A DNA stretch of 64,000 bases from Tachypleus tridentatus (Eukaryota > Arthropoda > Merostomata > Xiphosura > Limulidae), in assembly GCF_004210375.1 (NCBI RefSeq), contig NC_134827.1, forward strand, positions 99,108,672 through 99,172,671, in the 5' to 3' direction. The notes beneath the pieces were generated by a model. It made no database searches. It was given only the letters and a program-made list of their open reading frames with translations, and was not told the DNA's origin. The position numbers and the translations under genes are program-made. How positions within the stretch are numbered: the stretch's first letter is position 1; each line of letters starts with the position of its first letter. Below are positions 2,385-46,961 of the stretch, piece after piece.

Positions 2385-7631
<5,247 letters not shown>

Positions 7632-9595: not shown

Positions 9596-10677
9596 CAGTG
9601 GAACGCCATTAAGCCGCGGACCAGTAAACCGCGAAATCGTTTAAGCCGCTGTAGCAAGTCTTGTGAGCGAGGATTAACGCGGCTTACGAATTTAATCCTG
9701 GCTTTATAACTTCAAGGGCATATTTAAAAAGGATTTGCAAGGGGATATTTAAAAAGGATTTGCTTTAATGTGGGAAATAAATAAAATATATTACAATAGA
9801 AATCGACCGTTAATCTACCTTATCCGCTTTCTATGTCAGCTTTATGGAGGCCGCCATTGTTACCGAATCACACCTCTCCATACATTAAAGTTAATCCGCG
9901 GTAAATCCGTGAAAAAAGTGATCAATAATTAAAGTATTATTTTTAATTCGATAATTCGATATTTTTATGGAATTGTATAAATATTGGCCACAAACCCAAT
10001 AGAAATCACTTCAGTTTCTGAATTAATAGTGAGCATATCATATTGACAAATTCCTACCCCATGAGTACCAAAGGTAAATATGCATCGTATGACGTTCAGC
10101 AAAAGCTGAATGTCATAGAAAGAATACGAAACGGCGAAACTCGCGCTAAAGTTAGTAGAGAGTTAGGCATACCTGAGTCTACATTGCGTGGGTGGATTAA
10201 AGATAAGAATAAATTAAGAGCATTTCTTGATGAACTTGATGAGGGTGGTTTGAAACGCTAGAACAGCACAATGCATTTTGTGAAGCCAGAAACAATGGAA
10301 TTCCCATATCTGGACCAGTTATTCAAGCACAAGAACTTCATGGCTCTAATGCAGATCCAGAGTTTACTGTTTCAAGTGGTTGGTTAAGAAGGTGGAAGCA
10401 GCGACACGGCATATTGGAAGTAAAAATCAACGGCGAGATCAATTTATTAAAAAGGGGAAAAGCGAACCATCGCAATGCATTGGTCGTTTGTGTTAAAACG
10501 GCACTTGTCAATTGTATCTGAATAGTCTATACATTAATATTATAATGATCACGCAATGGCCCCGGATGAGGCTCCTCGGCGGATCTGTTGGCGACTTCGG
10601 CTTTTCAGTCACAAAGGTTTAAGCCGCGGTTAAGCAGGTTGAGCCCCCAAATACCGCGGCTTAACGGCGCTCCACTG
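9596..10677 (+). mobile_element. pogo/Tigger-type DNA transposon, internally deleted
   Basis: TA dinucleotides (9594-9595, 10678-10679) flank inverted ends: CAGTGGAACGCCATTAAGCC on the left and CAGTGGAGCGCCGTTAAGCC read inwards on the right. Between them is the start of a CENP-B/pogo-like transposase and then a short run of unrelated-looking sequence; the DDE catalytic domain is missing. Subterminal repeats of AAGCCGCGG motifs occur near both ends. Confidence 0.88.
10043..10500 (+). pseudogene. Tigger/pogo transposase N-terminal fragment
   Basis: The intact 72-residue start has the psq-type helix-turn-helix: YDVQQKLNVIERIRNGET, then V-S-R-E-L-G-I-P-E-S-T-L-R-G-W-I. That is the DNA-binding module of pogo/Tigger transposases and CENP-B. 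The frame stops at 10261. In a shifted frame the next domain continues to about 10500 with P-E-F-T-V-S-S-G-W-L-R-R-W, the second CENP-B-type helix-turn-helix. The DDE nuclease is absent, so it could at most bind the element's ends. TAG at 10259-10261 closes the first frame. Confidence 0.8.
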
Positions 10678-11742: not shown

Positions 11743-11880
11743 GTACTTCAGGATGAGACAACCTGAAGATGACCTGAGAGTGTTGAAACATTGTTCTCTG
11801 CTTTATTAGTAAAAGTGTTAATACCCATACCAGCTGTCCTGAGATGTATTTTTACTTCAGGTGGGTTTCTTGTCATCACA
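11743..11880 (+). mobile_element. Retrozyme-like Penelope-derived unit, 138 bp
   Basis: Bounded by a perfect 11-bp duplication AATTGCCATGT (11732-11742 and 11881-11891). It contains a hammerhead-like core (CTGAAGA at 11763-11769, GAAAC at 11785-11789), then AAAGTGTTAATACCCATACC and the terminal block GTGGGTTTCTTGTCATCAC. The terminal block also ends the larger Penelope-like copy at 34727 (minus). No coding capacity. Confidence 0.7.
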
Positions 11881-13640: not shown

Positions 13641-14906
13641 AATGTATTAACAACACTGATGTTTGTATAAATATATACAAAACTGTTTTAAGTTCTGTCG
13701 CTTAATAGAATTTTTTTTTTTTAAATAAAAATGTTTGCATAAATTCATGTATTGGTCAAATTATTCAATACATGTTGTGCAGATATATACAACTATCTAT
13801 GGCTGTTATCTGACTGAAGCATACAGGTGGACACTCACTTCTCTATCAATACTCAACAGATAATGTGCCCTTGTGCAGTAGAATTCCTTCAATATAAAAA
13901 CATTAAAAGTTTTGGTATAATACTTCTTATTCCAACTTTCAAATTTTATTTAAAAAATTATACATGTGTACAAAAATGGTATTAAAAGTAATATTTTGCT
14001 CTTTTGTATAAGGATATTCCATGCATGTGTAAAACTATATTTATATGCAACATCTTTCAGAATTAGCTTTTCTATTGTGTAACTGACCTAAACGTTAATT
14101 ACTTGTATCCATTCCTACTTGAACTTTTGCACAGTTTGTCATATGATCTACGTAAAAATATATTTTAAAATTGAAATACTTATAAGAAAAATAAATTCAT
14201 AATTGTCATGTTATCAGTAATTCAGTCAACATTTGTATTGACCATTGCTTCTAAAAATAAGTATTTTTGGATCAGATGTAGCCATTCTTAAGGGTCATGG
14301 AGTTATTTTCTCAACATATTATCTTCATTAAGAATTATTTTAGAAGCTGAATCAATACAGTACAGTCACCCCTGTCTGCAAAAGTTTGGCAAATGGGTTT
14401 TAATTTTGGTCTAACTTTTTATTGTTTTTTTTTTTTTCAAAAGTTTTGGCATAATGTTTAATGATATAAATAGTTTAGTAATTGAATTTCTTTTCATAAT
14501 CAGGTCAGATACTGTAACATTAGTTTGTACAATGTTTATCTGTAACTGTATATCTCGAAGCATTTTCATAGTTTCACTATAATAAATTAGATGTACAAAA
14601 AAACATGACAGCAGTAGTAGGTGATGAGCCATACAAGTTTACTAAATAATTGCCATGACTAACTTCACAATGAAATTAATTAAAGTAAGCAGTTGAAGCC
14701 TCAAATCTTGTTCTAAAGCTACATTCAGATAACTTATTTTTCGATTGTACTAATCAGTGTTCTTGTTATACATACAGGAAACACTCCTGGTAGGTTAGTA
14801 TCAAAACTGATTGGATCATTATTTCAATCTCGGAATGGAAAAGATTAATATAAACGATCATGCAATCATCAAGTCTGTAAGCAGTTTATGAAACTTGAGA
14901 TATATA
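13641..14906. other. Intergenic, nothing recognised
   Basis: AT-rich sequence; short open frames only. Confidence 0.5.
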
Positions 14907-15399
14907 TACGTCTTGACGTATACAGGACGCTACCATAACAGAATATGTAGGTAGACGTACATCTTGACATATACAGGATGTTGGTGTAAGAGAATACATA
15001 GTACATCTTGACATATACAGGATGTTAGTATAACAGAATACGTAGATACACATACATCTTGACATATACAGGACGCTACCATAACAGAATATGTAGATAC
15101 ACGTACATCTTGACATATACAGGATGTTGGTGTAAGAGAATACGTAGATACACGTACATCTTGACATATACAGGATGTTGGTGTAACAGAATACGTAGAT
15201 ACACGTACATCTTGACATATACAGGACGCTACCATAACAGAATATGTAGATACACGTACATCTTGACATATACAGGATGTTAGTGTAACGGAATACGTAG
15301 ATACATGTACATCTTGACATATACAGGATGCTACCATAACAGAATACGCAGATACAAGTACATCTTGACATATACAGGATGTTAGTGTAACAGAATACC
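14907..15399. repeat. 51-bp minisatellite, about 10 units
   Basis: Every unit contains ATCTTGACATATACAGGA or a close variant. There are two unit types: A (GGACGCTACCATAACAG) and B (GGATGTTGGTGTAACAG). The order is A B B A B B A B A B; the third unit is about 7 bp short. Because 51 is a multiple of three, long spurious open frames run through it on both strands. Confidence 0.95.
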
Positions 15400-15807
15400 T
15401 TGAGTTCTTCATCTCCCAAATGACTCAAAGGAGATGTAAAAAATTGATGAGGTTTATTCATTGTTAGGCTTACAGTGTTTACAGTCAGTAAATGTGAAAT
15501 TTTCTTGCTTAAGTTTAATCTTTTCTTCTTCAGAATGTAAGTAATGATATAACAATTGGAAGACATCATCATTTCCAATAATAAATTATCATCGGAACTA
15601 ATTAATTATACTTGTTATATGACATCAGTATTAGGCCTATTGTATTATTTAATTCTGCATTCTTTAACTTGTCCCTTAAGGATTTTCAATAATTAAAATT
15701 AAATACAATATTAAAAGTACTCCAACCACTCATTTGGCTCAATGCTTAGCTCATCAGGTGAGGTGAGACACAAGAAATACAGTATTCATTGAAACAGTAT
15801 TTTTACA

Positions 15808-19782: not shown

Positions 19783-19940
19783 TGATGACTTGTGGGTATC
19801 AACAGTGATTGATAAGCAGAGAACATTTTGACCTTTCTGAGTCATCTTCAGGTTAACAAAGACGACGACCTAAGAAGGTCAAAATGTTGTTCTCCACTTA
19901 TTAATAAATGTGTTAACACCCATACCAGCTGTTCTGAGGT
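19783..19940. mobile_element. Retrozyme-like inverted unit, 158 bp
   Basis: Two head-to-head hammerhead-like halves share a central GTTAAC palindrome at 19852-19857. The minus strand reads CCTGAAGATGACTCAGAAAG, then GGTCAAAATG. The plus strand reads GACGACGACCTAAGAAGGTC, then AAAATG. The unit ends with the ACACCCATACCAGCTGTTCT block. A candidate 15-bp TSD with two mismatches lies at 19768-19782 and 19941-19955. Confidence 0.6.
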
Positions 19941-19955
19941 ACATAAAATTACTCA

Positions 19956-23169: not shown

Positions 23170-26100
23170 CTGCAGAAGCAAAAACTTGAATTTTTAAAAC
23201 CTGGATTATTTTACATGTATAAGAACATATGAAAAGCAGTTTGTTTAAAGAAACAAAAAACAGGTAAACTTTAAAATTCAGACTTTGACAAGTGTGCTCT
23301 CAGGAGTTAAACATGATCTGGTGAAATAACCCAGCAGATCATTTCTACTTGTTAATATCCTTAATTTCAAACATAACCAAATTAACTTAGATGAAAAAAC
23401 ACTATACCTTTCTAAGCTAATTGATATAAAACAGTACAGAAATAACTGTAAACATAGCAAAGAATAAAATTCTGAATCTATTCAAAATAATTGGACTTTT
23501 ACTGGCTATGAAAATAAAGATACATTTAAAATGTGGTTTTTTGCAGAGCTTTCAAGAATACTTCAAATCTTACATAAATTTTTGTAAAAATGTGGGTGAA
23601 TTTTTCTGTAAAGGTTTATACACATTTTGTACTGCTTGTAATAAAGTTGCAAAGTCAAAATGTTGTCCAGCAAATCCTTGTGGTGTAGGAAAGCTTTGAA
23701 ACAAAATATATGTTTATTTTTAATGCTTTCAGAACTTTGAACTATAGAATTTTATTTCTTCAAGAAAAACTACAATAAATGTGACACTAGAAAGTTATTA
23801 CCCTAGAGGTAAGATATGTAAAAAATTAATCATAGCTATTTGCAAAACAATTAAAGGTCACTGGAAGAACACTACAAGAACTAAGGAAAAAAAAAAACTA
23901 ACTATCAACTGTCTTCTTCAGGAATAATGTTTACCCTTTGTGTAAATTTGCTTACTATCCATGTTCAACGATGTAAGAATTTTTGTGGCTGACCATTTAA
24001 AATGTTGGAAGCAAAATGCTTGTATCATATGATGTTGACCTCAGGTTAAGGTTTAAACTTTAGTGAAACCCAACCTTTGTTTCTTAGCAAAGTTACTGAA
24101 GTCTCATTTTTTCTGAATTGCCAACCAGCAAAAAGGCAGTTGCCAATCCTTGGACTGCACTACACCAGTGAATAGTGAGATTAACCATCACATCATAACA
24201 CTCCATGGCAGAAGGGATGAGCATTTTTGACACTAGGTTTCAATCCTGCAACTCATTCATTGCAAGTCAAGTTCTTTTATAAACAATTATGCAAGCCTTA
24301 AGAAACTCAAACATTAACATCTGTATAGCCCAGTGATGTTTAGTTTATTCTAGTCTGTGTTTAACTGCACACCGTTTAGTACTGTAATTACTCTTTTCCT
24401 TTCGTTTTAACTTTACAAATAAAATCAACAAAAGCAAAGTAACTTATAATAATGAAAAGGTAAAAATAAATTTCTTGCATAAAGGAAGTTAAACTGATTG
24501 CAAAACTGTATCTTTAAAAATATATCTCTATATTTATTGAGAAAAAATCTTTCAGAAGAAAACTATATTATTATAATAAAAAACTAATTAACTTTGTATG
24601 TATCTCAGAATGGCTGGTGTGGGTATTAACACTTTTATTGATAAGGAGAGGACAACGTTTTGACCTTCCTAGGTCGAAACAATGTCCTCTCCTTATCAAT
24701 AAAAGTGTTACCCATACCAGCTGTTCTGAGATAAGTTTTTATCTCAAGTGTGTTTCTCATCATCGAGAATTAATTAACTTTGTAACAGAAATAAGTTAAA
24801 ATAGCACTGATGGATTGGCACTATTATTAAATTAAAAGAAAAGAAATCCAAATCATTGTATGAAGTTCATCTGAATCGATATTAAGCAAGAAAATGAAAA
24901 CTGAAGAAGATAAATTACTCACCCCAATCTTTTGCTTTCTCCACTGCCACAATCAACTCCTTTTGCTTTTTCTGACAAAGACCTGCATTTGTAAAACCAA
25001 CTTGTTAACGATGTCATTCTAATTTATTTTCGAAAACATTTCTTTATTGCACTAAATAATTTTTACCCAATTGCTATCACATTCTGTTAACTAAAATAAT
25101 GAAATATGGCCTCTTACAAAATGGCTATACCAAATGAAAACAACTTACCATAAATCAATAATAACACTACAATAGAAGAAACATGTCACATTTATTACAC
25201 AGGTTTCCTGTCTAATATTAATGTTTAATATTCCAGATGGAAGAAAAGCCGTTATTTGATGAATAGAAAACCTTATTTAATTTTGTTCATAATGTTAATT
25301 CAATGTTGATAAATGTATGCTAACCCTGTCAGAAAAGTTCAGATTAGAACTAATTCTTTCATATGGTAATATTACAAACATCTAAGATTTCCATACTAAT
25401 CTTAAGATGATGTTCCTTTTCTTCAGTTGTGAATATTTTGATTGTTTTTAATGCCTGACACAACTTGTTTCACCAAACATATGAAAACAATGACAACAAC
25501 AGCAGTCTAGCATTCTTAGTTTATAACAGTGACCCAGTTAATGATCTTGTTACTAGTTGCTGCCGATATCCCAACCATAATTAAGTAACAGTAGTATGTT
25601 CGTTTTTATACTACAATTTATGTAAAAGATATCACAAACGAAATATGCCACTCCACTTCTGATAAAGCAAAAGAACAGCTGCAACGTTTTCCTTTGCACC
25701 CTGTTTTATCTCCATTTCTATATTTTGTTTGATAGTTTCATTATAAGACTGCTTACATATACTTTAACTTTTAACTACAGATTGGGAAAATTCCTCTCTC
25801 ACAATTTTACAATCTCCAAAATTCTATTTCAGTGCAAAACTTTTTTTCTTACAACAGTGAAATCTCAAAGAGTTAAGCCTATTATAAAGCCATTTGGATA
25901 TGGTTCTCACATATTCAATAAAGGGCTTTTTACATGTTTTTGAAAATACCATAGAAATATTTTATCTTTTATTACCTGAATAACTTAGTCAGTGAACATT
26001 TTTATCTTGGAAATAATAATATTCTGTTAAATGGAATGTCATGTCATATTCCTTGTACACCAAAATCAGCAGCTTATACAATCCAGAAATGTTAGGCCTC

Positions 26101-32100: not shown

Positions 32101-35100
32101 GAATAACATTAATAATAAGAAACACTAGTTTTGATTAGTTGATTATTATCATGAGTCTGACACTGTTTAAGCTGAACAACTTTAATCAATAATGACAATA
32201 ACGAATCAAAGTAATAATTTCAATTACTTATTTTGATCCTATAGTTTTGATTAATCAATTATCTTATGTACCACTAATCAATGCACTTCATACTCAAAGT
32301 AATTTGTAATTGATTATATTAAGTTAATTTCCACCACTTGTACTACTGAATATACTTATTTATTAAATGATAAAGTCTGATAACTCCAATTATTATAAAG
32401 TCAAGATAAAATTGGGATCAACCTACCAATACCTCTAAACTGCCATACGCTGTACACCATTTCACTTTACAGAATATAAAAAATTACGTAGAAAGCTCAC
32501 ACATACATAAGATGAAAGTAAATAAATTCAATGCACATGTAACAGTGTACTTACAATACATGTTTTTCTAGTTTTAGAAGGAGGGTACTGTCCTTTGAAA
32601 TTCCTTCTGTAGTGAGTCCAAACTGGTTCAGAACCATACATTTCTTCATAAGCTGTAAAATTAATAATAAAGCATAAATAAAAGAATTAGATGTTAGACA
32701 CCTATAAAATGTTGAGTAACTACTATGTTAGTAACCTAATGAATTTAAAAACACTTTCATATAACAGAGAAAAAAGTTACAACACATGATACTGGTAATA
32801 TCATGTCACAATAAAATCAGAATAATTTTAAACTAAATATAATAGGCTGTGTGTGTGTTTTCTTACCTGCTGAATCCAGCAAGGGTAATCAAACCCATGA
32901 TTCTAGCATTGTAAATCCAAAGACTCACTGCTGTACCAGTGGGGAATAAATACAGTATGATATGAAGTGATTTTATATGGAAATATATGCAGAGTTACAG
33001 ATAAAAAAGTTGTAAACTCTACACCACAAAAATGAGAAAACTACTGAATCTTTCATTAAGATATAAATAGTGTGAACTTTAAAGATTAATCATGCTAATT
33101 AAAAGTTGTAGGTCTGAGAATGCATTTAAAAAAACTTATATTTGCATGAAATATTACTCTAAAGCTGTAATTTCAGATTTATTATTTAAATAAGAAAGTC
33201 ATCCCTGGCTCCAAACTGAAACAAATATTCTAGGTTAGTACCCACCCCTTGAGATGATTGGTTATTTTACATTCTTCCTTTTATTGAGGGACTATATTCA
33301 ATCTTTAAAGAGAAGTGTTTATTTTGTCTTTAATTTATGCTCTACAAGTAATTAAATAAAATGAAACCTTTGCAAAATATGATTGTGAAAGATTTGGTTA
33401 AGAAAAAAGTGTGCTATTATCATTAAAAATCTAAAATATTCCCTCCAACAAAATGTAAAATGTAGAAGTTTCTAAGGGAATAAATCTTTGTCCTAAATTT
33501 GGCTTGGACAAAGAATTAAAGGTAAATACTAACTAACTATGGTTAAAACTTCAATTACAGTCATTCTACTTTATATGTTCCATAAAGGACATAATTCAAA
33601 TTCAGCTTACTCTGAGAATTTGAAATGCACTAACAATTATAATCAAACAAATGCCATCAGTTTTAACCTGTTGACTGCAAGGTATTTCAGCTGCTACTAC
33701 AACTCTGAACCAAGTTCAAAATACAACTCTAATGCTTCTTCATTTTGTAACTTTTTTTCATGACGCCATTTTGGATCGAAAGTGAAACAATTTGTAAGTT
33801 GGTCAAATGCATGTATGGTGCTGACATCTATCGTTGAAATTAGGTATTAACTCGTCTGTGGCACTGTGTTACCGATCGGTTTGGATGAGTTATCTCATCT
33901 ACGGCACTGAACAGGTTAAATAAGAGCTGCACTACATTTCATTTTGACATTTTATCTTCTACTGTAAACTTATGTTATGCATAGTTGTCCTTCTATTAAG
34001 TTATATTAACTGTTAAAAATTATTCTAAATTAATTTTTAACCTATTATTTTAATGTAATTTAAGTGTAAAAAATTTAAGCCAGTAGTTCAATTTTCTGTA
34101 TTGCCCATAGTGACTTCTCTTCTGGTGATTGTTACAAAAGTAAATCTATCTTAGCCAAAGTTGACTTATACCCTGCTAAAATTCACATGCACGTACATCT
34201 CCTTGTCTCATCACTCTCACCATTAAATAAGAAAATTAATAATAATATACCAATTCTGTAAGTTCCTGTAAGAAGTTTGAACACCATAATCAGACCTCTC
34301 TGACTTCTTTTTTCATAAGAAGTCTGAAAGATCTTAATCTGGACCACAAACTTTTCATTCCAAGTATCGTCTTACTAGTCCTCCCTCTGACACCTTTCCA
34401 ACAATACAATGGAGACACACCAAGACTGAATGAAATATTCTGAATTAAACCTATCAAGTGGCTTTTACAGAGAAATGATAATATTTTTAGAATTTATTAT
34501 GTATTTCTGTAGGTATAACATAAAATCCTATTTGCCCTACCTCTAGCAACAGCACGTTTGGATGATTTAAAAGTTTGTTTTGTTTCTGAATTTTTGCAAA
34601 GCCACTCAAGGACTACCTGTGATAGCCATCCCTAACTTAGCAGTGTAAGACTATAGGGAAGGCAGTTAGTCATCACCACCCACTGCCAACTCTTGGACTA
34701 TTCTTTCACCAACAAATAGTGAGATTATCAGTGATGACGAGAAACCCACTTGTTGAGAAATTTATATGCAAAAAACGGCTCGTTTGGGCTGAGAAAACAC
34801 TTTACATAGAAGAGCAAACAACGTTTCGACCTTCTTCGGTCATCGTCAGGTTCACAAAGAAAGAGGTAACTGACCGGAAGCTGACCACATGTTTGAAAGG
34901 GGTTGTGTAACTGTGTGTCGAAATGTAGAGGGCGGTATTAGATGTTTGAATATATAATTTATTATATTAATATAGGTATAAAGGCGTTCCTTTATATTGG
35001 TTTATTTTGGGTTTAAGTTGTTGTATAAGTAAGGCTTCTTTAATTTTACGTTTGTTTATGTTTGTTTCTTTATTTAATATTTGAGTGTTTTCTATGGTTA

Positions 35101-38100
35101 TGTTGTGTTTATTTGACTTGCAGTGTTCAAAACGTGTGACGGTGACTTTTATGTTCTTTGAATCTGGTTTCCATTTTTCTACTTGTTTCTCCAATATAGA
35201 AGTCGTGGCAGTTATCACATTGTATTTTATAAATAATGTTGGTGTGGTGTTTGTCAGTGTAGTTTTACATAGTATAGACCTCAGTTTTGTGCGGGTTTTG
35301 AATAAATTTGGTATTAATTGGAATGTCATATTTTGTTACTAATTTTGCCAAATGTTGGTTATTTGTTTGCTGATGTCGGAATATATGGTATCTGGCAGTA
35401 TATGGTTTCGTGGTTTTTTGATTAAGTGAGCTGTATTTACTTTAGTTGGTTGATTTTGCTTTCTGTCTAGGTGTGTGCGTATAATGTTTTCTACGGTTTG
35501 TGGAGGAAACTTATTGATGTTGGTGAAGTATTGTTTTATTTTGTCTAATTCATCGTTAATTTTATCTGGTGAGCATAGTTTTATGGCTGTGTTTATTTGG
35601 TTTCTTAGTATGTTGAGTTTTTGTGTTGTTTCATGTGCTGAGTCCCAAGGAATGTATAGTCCAGTATGGGTGATTTTTTCGGTGGATTTCTGTTTGAAAT
35701 TGTGTATCAGTTCTTGTAATTTTGAGGTTAAGAAATGATATTTGATTGTTTTCTTCCTGTTCACATGTGAAGTTGATGTTGGGATGTATAGAGTTAATGT
35801 GATTGAAAAAATTAAGTATGTGTTCTGTAGATTTGAATCCATAACCGTGTCATCTACATATCTATACCAGTATAGTGGTGGATGTAATGCTGTGTTAATT
35901 GCTTGTGTTTCAACTTGTGTCATAAAAATATTGGCTAGAACTGGTGATACTGGGTTGCCCATGCTTAGGCCGTTTGTTTGTATATAGTTTTGGTTGTTGA
36001 ACATGAAGTTTGTCTTTATCGTGGTGAATTCTATGAGGGTTGCTAACTGGTTACTGGGAATTTCTATAGTTGGGTTAGGGTCTCGGATATAGAGTTCTAA
36101 GGCTATCTTGCAGGCTTCAGTGGTTGGAACTTCTGTAAAGAGGGATATAACATCGAAACTGGCCATTAAGGCTTTATGATTAAGTTGATTTAGATTAGAC
36201 TTGAAATTAAAAGAGTCTTTGATAAATGAGCTGGCTGATGTTACATATTTGGAGAATGCCCATGCTATGTATTTACCAAGGTTGTAATTAAACGATTCAT
36301 ATGTGGACATTATTGGTCGTAATGGACAATCTGGTTTATGAGGTTTGGGGATGCCGTATATTTGCGGTGTCGCGTGAGTCGGTTTTACGTGGGTAGGAAT
36401 AAAGTGTTTGTGAAATGGTGTTGGCTTTTTTCATTTGTAGTAGTAATTTGTTCAGTTGCGTCTCGTGTGTCTTTGTTGGATTTGTGTGTATTGGTTTAAA
36501 TAGTGAGATTGACCATCACTTTATAATGTCCCCACGGCTGAAAGGTAAGACCCTCAGATTACAAGTCGAACTCCTTGACCCACCTGGCCATGACAGGCCA
36601 ATTTAAAATTCTTCTCCTTCCATAAAAATGTTATTCCCATCAGAATTATAAACCACATGCAATACCTTACATCTAATATAACCAAAATGCATCTGCTATT
36701 TATTTGCCCAATTCACCAAGTGATCTAATTCCTTTTGTAAAGAAATAGAATTATCCTCATGACAGATACATGCATATTAATGTTACTGGTGACATTAATC
36801 TAGTTAAGATTGATTTCCATTTATAACAACACTCTGCTGTCTTCACTTCAGTCATTTTTAAGCCAACATGCTAACTTGTACTCCAAACCCATACAGACAA
36901 CTTTTAATTATCTTTTTATAGCACTTCACTAAATGTTTTCTTAAAATCCAGATACACCAAATCCACACTTTATCTTCATCTATTGCACTATTAGGTTTGG
37001 AATTTTACTACAAGTAGAACTGATGAAAAATGGTACACTAATTCCAAATTTCAGAAAAACCAATTTTGTTGGAATGAGATGAAAGCTGGCTTCTGTGAAT
37101 TGAACTAGAGTTGGGAGGGGATCTTGGATAGATGTGGGAAGCATTTAGGCAGAAATTAATATGCTTAAAGAACGTACATATTACCTACTAACATGAAAAA
37201 AGAGAAACAGAGAAGAAGCCAGTATTGTTTAAGTAAAGTTTAAGAGATCACATTGGTGATAAACATAATAAATTCAATAAATCTAAATTTACTGGAAATA
37301 ATGAGGACGTGGAACACTACAAGAAATCCAGAGAACTGGTTAAAAAGGATGTTAACTGACAGAGTTAACTTGAACAGTAAGGAAGTCTTTAAGTATATTA
37401 AGAGGAAACAAAATTTTAGGACAGGGATTGGAACTCTTAAAAATGATAGTGAAGAGCCAATACTAGAAGATTATGAGAAGGTAAGCTAAATAAATTATGT
37501 GCCCTCTTCAGTTTTTATGTAGGAAGTTGGTTGGTTGACATTAATTGGTGCAAAGCAACTAGGCTATCTTCCCCAAACTAGTAAGAACTTAAAAATAAAA
37601 ATAAATTAAAATATGTAATAAGAAATCATGTTGAAACAAAACAGTCCAATATTCAAATTAAAAACTTCAATAGAAGTAAAAAAACCAATGGCCCTTAAAA
37701 ATTTAAAAACACAACTGAGATGCAGAGTTCCACCATCAACAATGACGTTGTCCAATGTCAAAAGTGAACCAATGGTAAAAGTATGTCTAAAATGGTGCTG
37801 TAGCTCACAGTTGGCATGAAGGCACAACAGTAAAATGTGGGATATTCTGACCTGAGTGTCACACAGACCACACATTGGTGCATCAGTCCCAGATAAAAGA
37901 AAATTATGAGTTAAAAAAATTATAACTAATTCATAGCTTAGCCAGGACAACTTCCTCCTTCCGATCCTTACGGGAGCAAGACAGCCAAAGAACAACAGAA
38001 GGTTTGATCTGGAAAAGCTTGTTATCACATTGCTCAGTCCAAGTTGACTGCCAACTTAACTGCAGAGCCTAGCCTTGAATACACGACTGTAGTCCAATTA

Positions 38101-45186: not shown

Positions 45187-46112
45187 TATTTAAAGGAAAT
45201 TAAACTTTCAACTGTGAGGATACTAACAGTCTAATTAATAACTTAAGTGCTTGTGTTTTAAAACGTCACGTGTAGAAACAAGGCTCTCCAATTCAAGGTT
45301 ACTCTGTCGGTGGAAAATTAATTCACTCAAGAGCTTGTATATTTATACTAAATGAAAACGATTATTTATACCATTGCGCTAAAGAATCGACGACTTCCAA
45401 AAATATCTTAAATAGAGACGTTTGTAAAAACGTGGAATCACCTGACCATACACGACTACAAATAATAGAAAATCTGCCAATCCACAATACCGCCTGAAAA
45501 TCTATTGTCATTCCAACAACATACATGTAAGCTACGTCTATATCAAATATACGGTCATAAATAGTTTCAGCGTAATGCTTACTGGGTTTTGCTTTAAATT
45601 TAATTAGACATGTAAAAATAAATTGACTTTTCCCAACTACTTTTTCAGTGATTCCAGGTTTTGTAAATACCCTTATCTTATGATTATGGATGACATATTT
45701 TACTAGTAAGTTGTACCGTTCTATTAAAATTAGTAAACACAGTTGTCGAAAAAAGGTTTTTTTCAGTAAATCTCTGAAGATAAACTCTCGTTGACAATTA
45801 AACGAAAATAAACGTAACCTTTAATACTGTTGAATAGCTCTGTTAAAAATAACATTATGCTGTTATGATGACTTTTAAAAAGACGGTAATACCAAATATA
45901 TATTTAATACAAACATTTCGGAATTTGTCTTTAAATTCGATATCTCAAAAAAAAAGTTAGTTAATGACATTCGAATAACAAAAAACAACATTAGTATTGA
46001 GCGAATTTTTGTAGTTAATCGCAAGATTAGAAAGAACATATTTAAAAAACCTAAATAGAATTATTACTTCAGTATCCAAGCGTATATATTGTGGCAAAAG
46101 TTTGTTTGTTTC
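45187..46112. other. Region upstream of mRpS18B
   Basis: Should contain the promoter and 5' UTR of mRpS18B, but I see no clear TATA box, initiator or CpG island. Confidence 0.4.
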
Positions 46113-46462
46113 TTATTTGGCAAAAACTAGTAGCAAAATATGATATTCCAGTTAATACCAAATTTATTCAAAAACCAGGCACAAAACTAAGGTCTATAGT
46201 GTGTAAAAACTACACTGACAAATATCACACCAACATTATTTATAAAATACAATGTGATAACTACCACGACTTCTGTATTGGAGAAACAAGTAGAAAAATG
46301 GAAACCAGATTCAAAGAACACAAAAAGTCAACTTCACACGTTTTTGAACACTGCAAATCAAATAAACACAACATAACCATAGAAAACACTCAAATACTAA
46401 ATAAAGAAACAAACGTAAAATTAAAGAAGCTTTACTTATACGACAGCTCAAGCCCAAAATAA
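46113..46462 (+). pseudogene. GIY-YIG endonuclease fragment of Penelope-like element
   Basis: Keeps [11 protein letters not shown] (the G-I-Y strand), F-C-I-G-E-T (Y-I-G equivalent), the catalytic-type Arg in R-K-M-E-T-R, and E-H. It ends with the conserved [10 protein letters not shown]. It lacks its RT partner and is frameshifted at the end compared with L-I-Q-Q-L-K-P-K in the other copy. Confidence 0.8.
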
Positions 46463-46604
46463 ACCAATTACAAAGGAACACCTTTATACCCATATTAATA
46501 AATATAATCAAACATCTAAGCACGCCCTCTACATTCCGACATTCAGTTACACAACCCCCTCATACATGTGGTCAACTATCGGTCAGTTACCTCTTTCTTT
46601 CCTT

Positions 46605-46646
46605 GTGAACCTGACGATGACCGAAGAAGGTCGAAATGTTGTTCGC
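46605..46646 (+). ncRNA. Hammerhead-ribozyme-like motif, second copy
   Basis: GUGAAC, CUGACGA, U, GACC-GAAGAA-GGUC, GAAA, UGUU, GUUCGC. Stem I GUGAAC/GUUCGC pairs over six positions with one U-G wobble. Compared with the 34.8-kb copy, both stem I changes (U to C at 46644, U to C inside the loop side) keep pairing, while stem III changes C to U. Confidence 0.62.
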
Positions 46647-46698
46647 TCCTCTACATAAAAATGTTCTCAACCCAAACCAGTCGTTTTTACATATATAT

Positions 46699-46961
46699 TT
46701 GTTCGTTTCTGAATTTCGCGCAAAGCTACACGAGACCTATCTGAGCTAGCCGTCCCTAATTTACTGGTGTAAGATTAGAAGGAGGTCATCACCACCCACT
46801 GCCTTCTCTTGGGCTACTCTTTTACCAACGAATAGTGGGATTGACCGAACATAATAATGCCCCCACGGCTAAAAGAGCGAGCATGTTTAGTGTGACGTGG
46901 ATTCGAACCCGCGACTCATCAAATTACTGGTCGAATGTCTTAATCACCTGGCCATGCCGGT
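46699..46961 (-). mobile_element. SINE family 1
   Basis: Body and head match the consensus (GATTCGAACCCGCGAC on plus is the B-box strand). It has a small body deletion. Abuts the end of the Penelope-like copy. Confidence 0.88.

Follow-up and report, generated by a model that had tools for sequence, protein, structure and literature searches.

A short palindrome in Tachypleus tridentatus DNA read as a head-to-head pair of Penelope-like element ends

The near-perfect 172-bp palindrome at positions 24599–24770 of the window (the whole stretch of 64,000 nucleotides of Tachypleus tridentatus DNA that was analysed) is, as judged from its sequence, a head-to-head pair of pLTR ends of a Penelope-like element (PLE), and represents a very short version of a Penelope-type insertion which is common in the host genome. 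One end carries a tail and the other does not; the same pattern was found in 44 of 45 resolved loci, and it makes a two-ended mechanism of insertion directly testable in vitro and in PLE-rich genomes.

PLEs constitute a third class of eukaryotic retrotransposons, and their mode of insertion is still debated. Earlier views regarded the tails as optional and the inverted pLTRs as products of self-priming, and there is one in vitro system in which both strands were extended. Short palindromes hold both ends of an insertion in less than 250 bp, so that each copy records the start of both ends. The relatives described below nearly always have two differently built ends, which gives a hint as to the insertion of these still poorly understood elements.

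Structure of the palindrome in the window

The two copies of TAATTAACTTTGTA are exact, with 172 bp between them (Table 1), and the segment 24601–24733 folds into a single hairpin of −104.4 kcal/mol, far below 200 shuffled sequences (mean −35.95, sd 3.94; z −17.4; 0/200 as low). The 14-bp duplication and the long hairpin of the original prediction were thus both recovered. Its further statements, i.e., that the element was inserted as a finished unit, that it is an inverted dimer and that it is linked to Penelope-type elements, agree with a palindrome which has its own target-site duplication (TSD), with two arms standing head-to-head, and with the correspondence of these arms to PLE pLTR ends.

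The left arm has the inner, tail-less boundary at its outer end. Similarity between the arms is 84%, and the right arm has a 3-nt deletion relative to the left; the palindrome has therefore decayed since insertion. Its junction sits at a GACC/GGTC hairpin, and among 66 pairs from the host genome (see below) this junction recurs only in the similarity-selected set (L023, L043). When the joined flanks were searched for an empty site in the host genome, only the two flanks of the window itself were matched (1 candidate scored).

Table 1. Features in the window. Reference positions are those of a 121-nt reference made up of arm and tail, of which the right arm including its tail covers 19–121
Feature	Position	Strand	Basis or details
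TSD, left copy, 14-bp TAATTAACTTTGTA	24585..24598	.	direct reading and repeat search
Left arm, inverted PLE pLTR end, tail-less, begins TGTATCTCAG	24599..24675	-	reference positions 10–87
Right arm, PLE pLTR end, from GGTC-GAAAC motif to GAGATA	24671..24735	+	reference positions 19–86
PLE tail, 35 nt, right arm only	24736..24770	+	alignment to reference position 121
TSD, right copy, 14-bp TAATTAACTTTGTA	24771..24784	.	direct reading and repeat search
Coding PLE of a sister subfamily	34732..36430	-	RT frame 35339–36430, C-terminal frame 34967–35335, pLTR end 34732–34850

Two other copies were noted in the window. At 19793–19944 there is a second, older head-to-head copy (reference positions 1–65 inverted, 4–87 direct), whose outer left part looks deleted; at 11762–11878 there is a copy with a single arm and the greater part of the tail (reference positions 1–116), for which the window scan gave no partner arm. 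Overlapping minus-strand ORFs of the repeated peptide ILYMSRCTCI at 14886–15605 represent a tandem repeat read as ORF.

PLE ends in the host genome

The host genome carries thousands of such PLE ends. In the 2.17 Gb searched, a 34-nt arm-end pattern was found at 9,607 places (≤2 mismatches) and a 41-nt tail pattern, which included 10 nt of the arm end, at 6,527 places (≤3 mismatches); the reversed control patterns for both gave 0 places. The same genome carries coagulin, a protein known from horseshoe crabs, with 19 PF02035 matches over the cut-off, against 0 of 14 control genomes. Copies of the palindrome itself, for which the original prediction had suggested a search, were found at at least 40 places, the window copy included (40 of 2,323 candidates scored). 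Exact matches to the hammerhead-like pLTR pattern were dense in C1:15371203–15958308, with 24 in 0.59 Mb and strand runs of 6 minus, 15 plus and 3 minus, which may be a dense cluster or a large duplicated block. Locus L081 contained eight 23-nt arm pieces at 1651–2506 with a regular spacing of 119 nt, a tandem array with part of a PLE end.

A sample blind to the tail was taken from all 63 exact arm-end places of C1, which gave 60 loci besides three that had been sampled before (59 remained when a duplicate was removed), and from 37 exact arm-end places of C2 among the matches listed (33 after removal of duplicates), which gave 92 distinct loci. The set of 66 pairs consisted of 34 similarity-selected, 9 tail-selected and 23 blind C1 pairs, with no C2 loci; L013 was left out, its left arm ending at position 71. 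Near-identical duplicates were removed (L015, L035, L042, L086, L102, L155, L170, L171, L180, L183). Score thresholds of 35 for a partner and 30 for a tail were set after the scores had been seen; the largest shuffled score was 30.

Among the 92 blind loci, 45 were head-to-head and showed both outer ends in the sequence examined, four (L127, L163, L193, L194) had a partner cut by the edge of that sequence and were left out, and 43 showed no partner in it. Exactly one tail was present in 44 of the 45 resolved loci, three of them with a short tail match (L129, L186, L195); no locus had zero tails, and L200, with two, was the sole exception. This regularity was first noticed on C1 (32/32) and then repeated on C2 (12/13). 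With independent choice of tails, about half of the pairs would be expected to have one tail (p about 1e-12). A cruder tail rule, applied to the 66 pairs, gave one tail in 63, two in L016 and none in L040 and L129. Tail-less partners ended at reference positions 82–92 in 18 of 23 cases and short of the inner boundary in five. The arms of the 43 partnerless loci were tailed in 24 and tail-less in 19 cases. In L111, L120, L147 and L168 (4 of 21 tailed partners) the tailed arm was little more than the tail itself, beside a longer tail-less arm; therefore the arms of these four were primed separately.

Of 65 pairs, 45 had TSD-like flank matches with a score of at least 6, among them 14 of the blind C1 pairs (23 in total), and 20 had none at this score; when flanks were swapped between copies, the value was 2.4%. 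With a score of at least 8 there were 29 of 65, compared to 0.4% after swapping, and these matches had a length of 8–14 bp and an A+T content of 72%. L040 was omitted from this test, and the orientation of L016 was picked by hand. The junctions differed between copies: 22 classes occurred among the 23 blind C1 pairs, 9 among the 9 tail-selected and 26 among the 34 similarity-selected pairs, or 52 among all 66, the largest class having 7 members. In the blind C1 pairs the longer arm was the tailed one in 11 cases and the tail-less one in 9, and in 3 the arms were about equal. Since junctions are varied and either arm may be longer, most palindromes were probably made anew; the pattern fits their formation whenever a PLE end inserts.

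Where the arms stop was evaluated for 86 arms (blind C1 plus tail-selected) from the alignment ends, which have an error of a few nt. The 20 nt immediately upstream of a CCTGAAG motif contained the stops of 28, and the following 40 nt those of 2; 20 arms extended further, and 36 stopped inside the arm. The boundary near TTAACCTGAAG suggests the 5' end of the RNA.

The two arms of a copy share source variants and mostly not later CpG decay. At the source-variable positions 39 and 47 they agreed in 49 of 62 (p 3e-6) and 55 of 67 copies (p 1e-5), and disagreed in 13 and 12, respectively; the mean arm distance was 0.105, compared to 0.1225 after permutation, and none of 20000 permutations was as low (65 pairs; first seen with 44). 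This would fit copying of both arms from one RNA, or from RNAs of one source locus. A strong later homogenising of the arms is not favoured, because CpG positions 73 and 74 were not clearly in agreement between arms (p 0.46 and 0.055), though CpG position 28 was (p 0.015).

Insertions with coding sequence were also present. Among 30 tail-selected loci, the pLTR end of the palindrome type was directly preceded by a C-terminal PLE frame in L094, L101, L105 and L107, and RT matches were found in L098, L099, L106 and L107. Several features of PLE insertions are represented in the host genome: pLTR ends linked with the reverse transcriptase frame of a PLE, pLTRs in inverted arrangement, variable 5' truncation, a TSD, and on some ends a tail, here of 35 nt, in the range of 30–40 bp. 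The RT frame of the sister-subfamily PLE in the window matched RVT_1 (E 9.2e-11); a PDB search with it yielded nothing at E 0.01. Pfam gave no match to GIY-YIG in the PLE frames searched; a stretch read by eye is taken by us to be GIY-YIG-like. This PLE is likely to represent the kind of enzyme source which the palindrome used, as a candidate rather than the demonstrated source of the window copy. A fragment of the same subfamily lies at 46055–46703 of the window, with a C-terminal frame (46055–46462) and a pLTR end (46610–46703) which stops about where the tail begins.

Thirty sister-subfamily loci were found by RT protein, and about 4 kb were examined per locus. A head-to-head pair was present in 10 of the 30, and 9 of the 10 pairs had one tailed and one shorter end, which in L058 extended slightly into the tail, to position 100. 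Shared flanks of 12–17 nt (control maximum 8) supported a single insertion in L057, L062, L069 and L079; they measured 8 nt in L058 and L064, 6 in L065 and 4 in L068, and L052 was too close to the edge for this test. L051 had two tails and shared flanks of only 4 nt. Therefore, a pair of ends like that of the palindrome can also bound insertions that contain an RT frame.

Probable double priming and other explanations

We consider the palindrome to be probably a doubly primed PLE insertion reduced to a very short form. The PLE protein complex, presumably a dimer, would cut both target strands about 8–14 bp apart. One exposed 3' end would serve as primer for reverse transcription from an outer start site on the PLE RNA, yielding the tailed arm, and the other from an inner start site, which lies about 35 nt further upstream, yielding the tail-less arm; that the tail boundaries are such start sites may be assumed by analogy with in vitro work on an anole PLE. 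Both cDNAs would extend towards the 5' end of the RNA, stop at various points and become joined, and gap filling would produce the TSD. If both stopped near the hammerhead-like region, a palindrome of roughly 150–220 bp as in the window would result; if they ran on, coding sequence would lie between the ends. The counts favour priming of each insertion at two starts, one outer and one inner. Several observations are counter to double priming: the two tails in L200, L016 and L051 (the last without shared flanks), the five tail-less partners short of the inner boundary, the 20 pairs without TSD-like match, the disagreement of arms at positions 39 and 47, the junction recurring in up to 7 pairs, and the 43 partnerless blind loci.

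Snap-back self-priming appears rather unlikely. A single cDNA would fold back at the stem-II-like hairpin, copy its own second arm and join the other target end; the turn of the window copy and a few others exactly at GACC/GGTC would agree with this, as would the source variants common to both arms, and self-priming on an antisense template was deduced from palindromic junctions in the available parts of PMC3846280. It leaves the stop of the second arm at the inner boundary unexplained, and for the four loci with a tailed arm of little more than tail it is impossible; self-priming alone thus fails there, and the window copy may still fit it. Improbable, too, is a palindromic non-autonomous family, in which the transcript of one master would be copied whole by PLE proteins. 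Constant outer ends, TSDs, high copy number and the one recurrent junction speak for such a master; for the sample as a whole its amplification was rejected because of the diversity of junctions, and either arm may be longer, and insertions with internal coding sequence have the same ends. For chance, or for an inversion or other local rearrangement, no supporting point was found, and the exact TSD, the fold and the many copies with constant ends render this exceedingly improbable.

The original prediction had proposed hammerhead halves and a retrozyme-like element, spread via circular RNA made by the hammerhead. A stem-II-like GACC/GGTC plus a GAAAC motif are indeed present in the window palindrome, yet Rfam gave no match at gathering score in the window, nor any hammerhead in six whole loci at E up to 10, both searches being without a known PLE hammerhead as positive control; a CTGATGA pattern joined to the arm occurs at 1 place in the genome. 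Animal retrozymes, according to the available parts of PMC7229834, are short direct tandem repeats with a working type I hammerhead and circular RNA. Small size, many copies, TSDs and a hammerhead-like motif are common to them and the palindrome, and the Penelope-type link would also be in favour; however, direct tandem repeats are absent here, the two arms being inverted, head-to-head, and the palindrome has no hammerhead recognised by Rfam. A retrozyme is therefore very improbable.

Returning to double priming, it is conceivable, with slightly less than even probability in our estimation, that PLE retrotransposition in general is an obligate two-primer reaction, using both target ends, one for each adjacent start site, probably on one RNA held by a dimer. 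If so, the tail would be the mark of one defined end per insertion and not optional, and inverted pLTRs would be the primary product.

Comparison with known systems

In twin priming of L1, both target ends prime reverse transcription, which leads to an inversion within the TSD, as in the PLE insertions here; in L1 a 5' segment is inverted, and the same sequence is not known to be repeated. The PLE ends start at fixed adjacent sites, and therefore the product is palindromic, unlike that of L1. In the literature consulted, mainly open-access and available in part, no statement was found that each PLE insertion carries exactly one tail, and the accessible parts of a description of the D. virilis mobilome (PMC12910113) contained no mention of tails or inverted pLTRs.

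In the rotifer Adineta vaga (PMC3846280, 2013, as far as the available text goes), Penelope insertions are alike in having head-to-head inverted pLTRs, TSDs of 8–10 bp, a 31-bp tail optionally on one pLTR, and palindromes at junctions. They comprise few elements, mostly with coding sequence, and were interpreted as self-priming, whereas the host genome studied here has copies without ORFs in very large number, with one tail in nearly all resolved loci. Frangieh et al. (2024; PMC11167929, available parts) showed in vitro that the protein of PAc, the Poseidon element of Anolis carolinensis, cuts both target strands and extends them, and that reverse transcription begins at two adjacent internal sites, the interval between them being the tail. 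No apparent difference in start site between the strands was reported in these parts, which is counter to a reading of two unlike ends per insertion, and the two ends of a single target were not followed there; the finished genomic insertions described here, by comparison, show one end of each kind.
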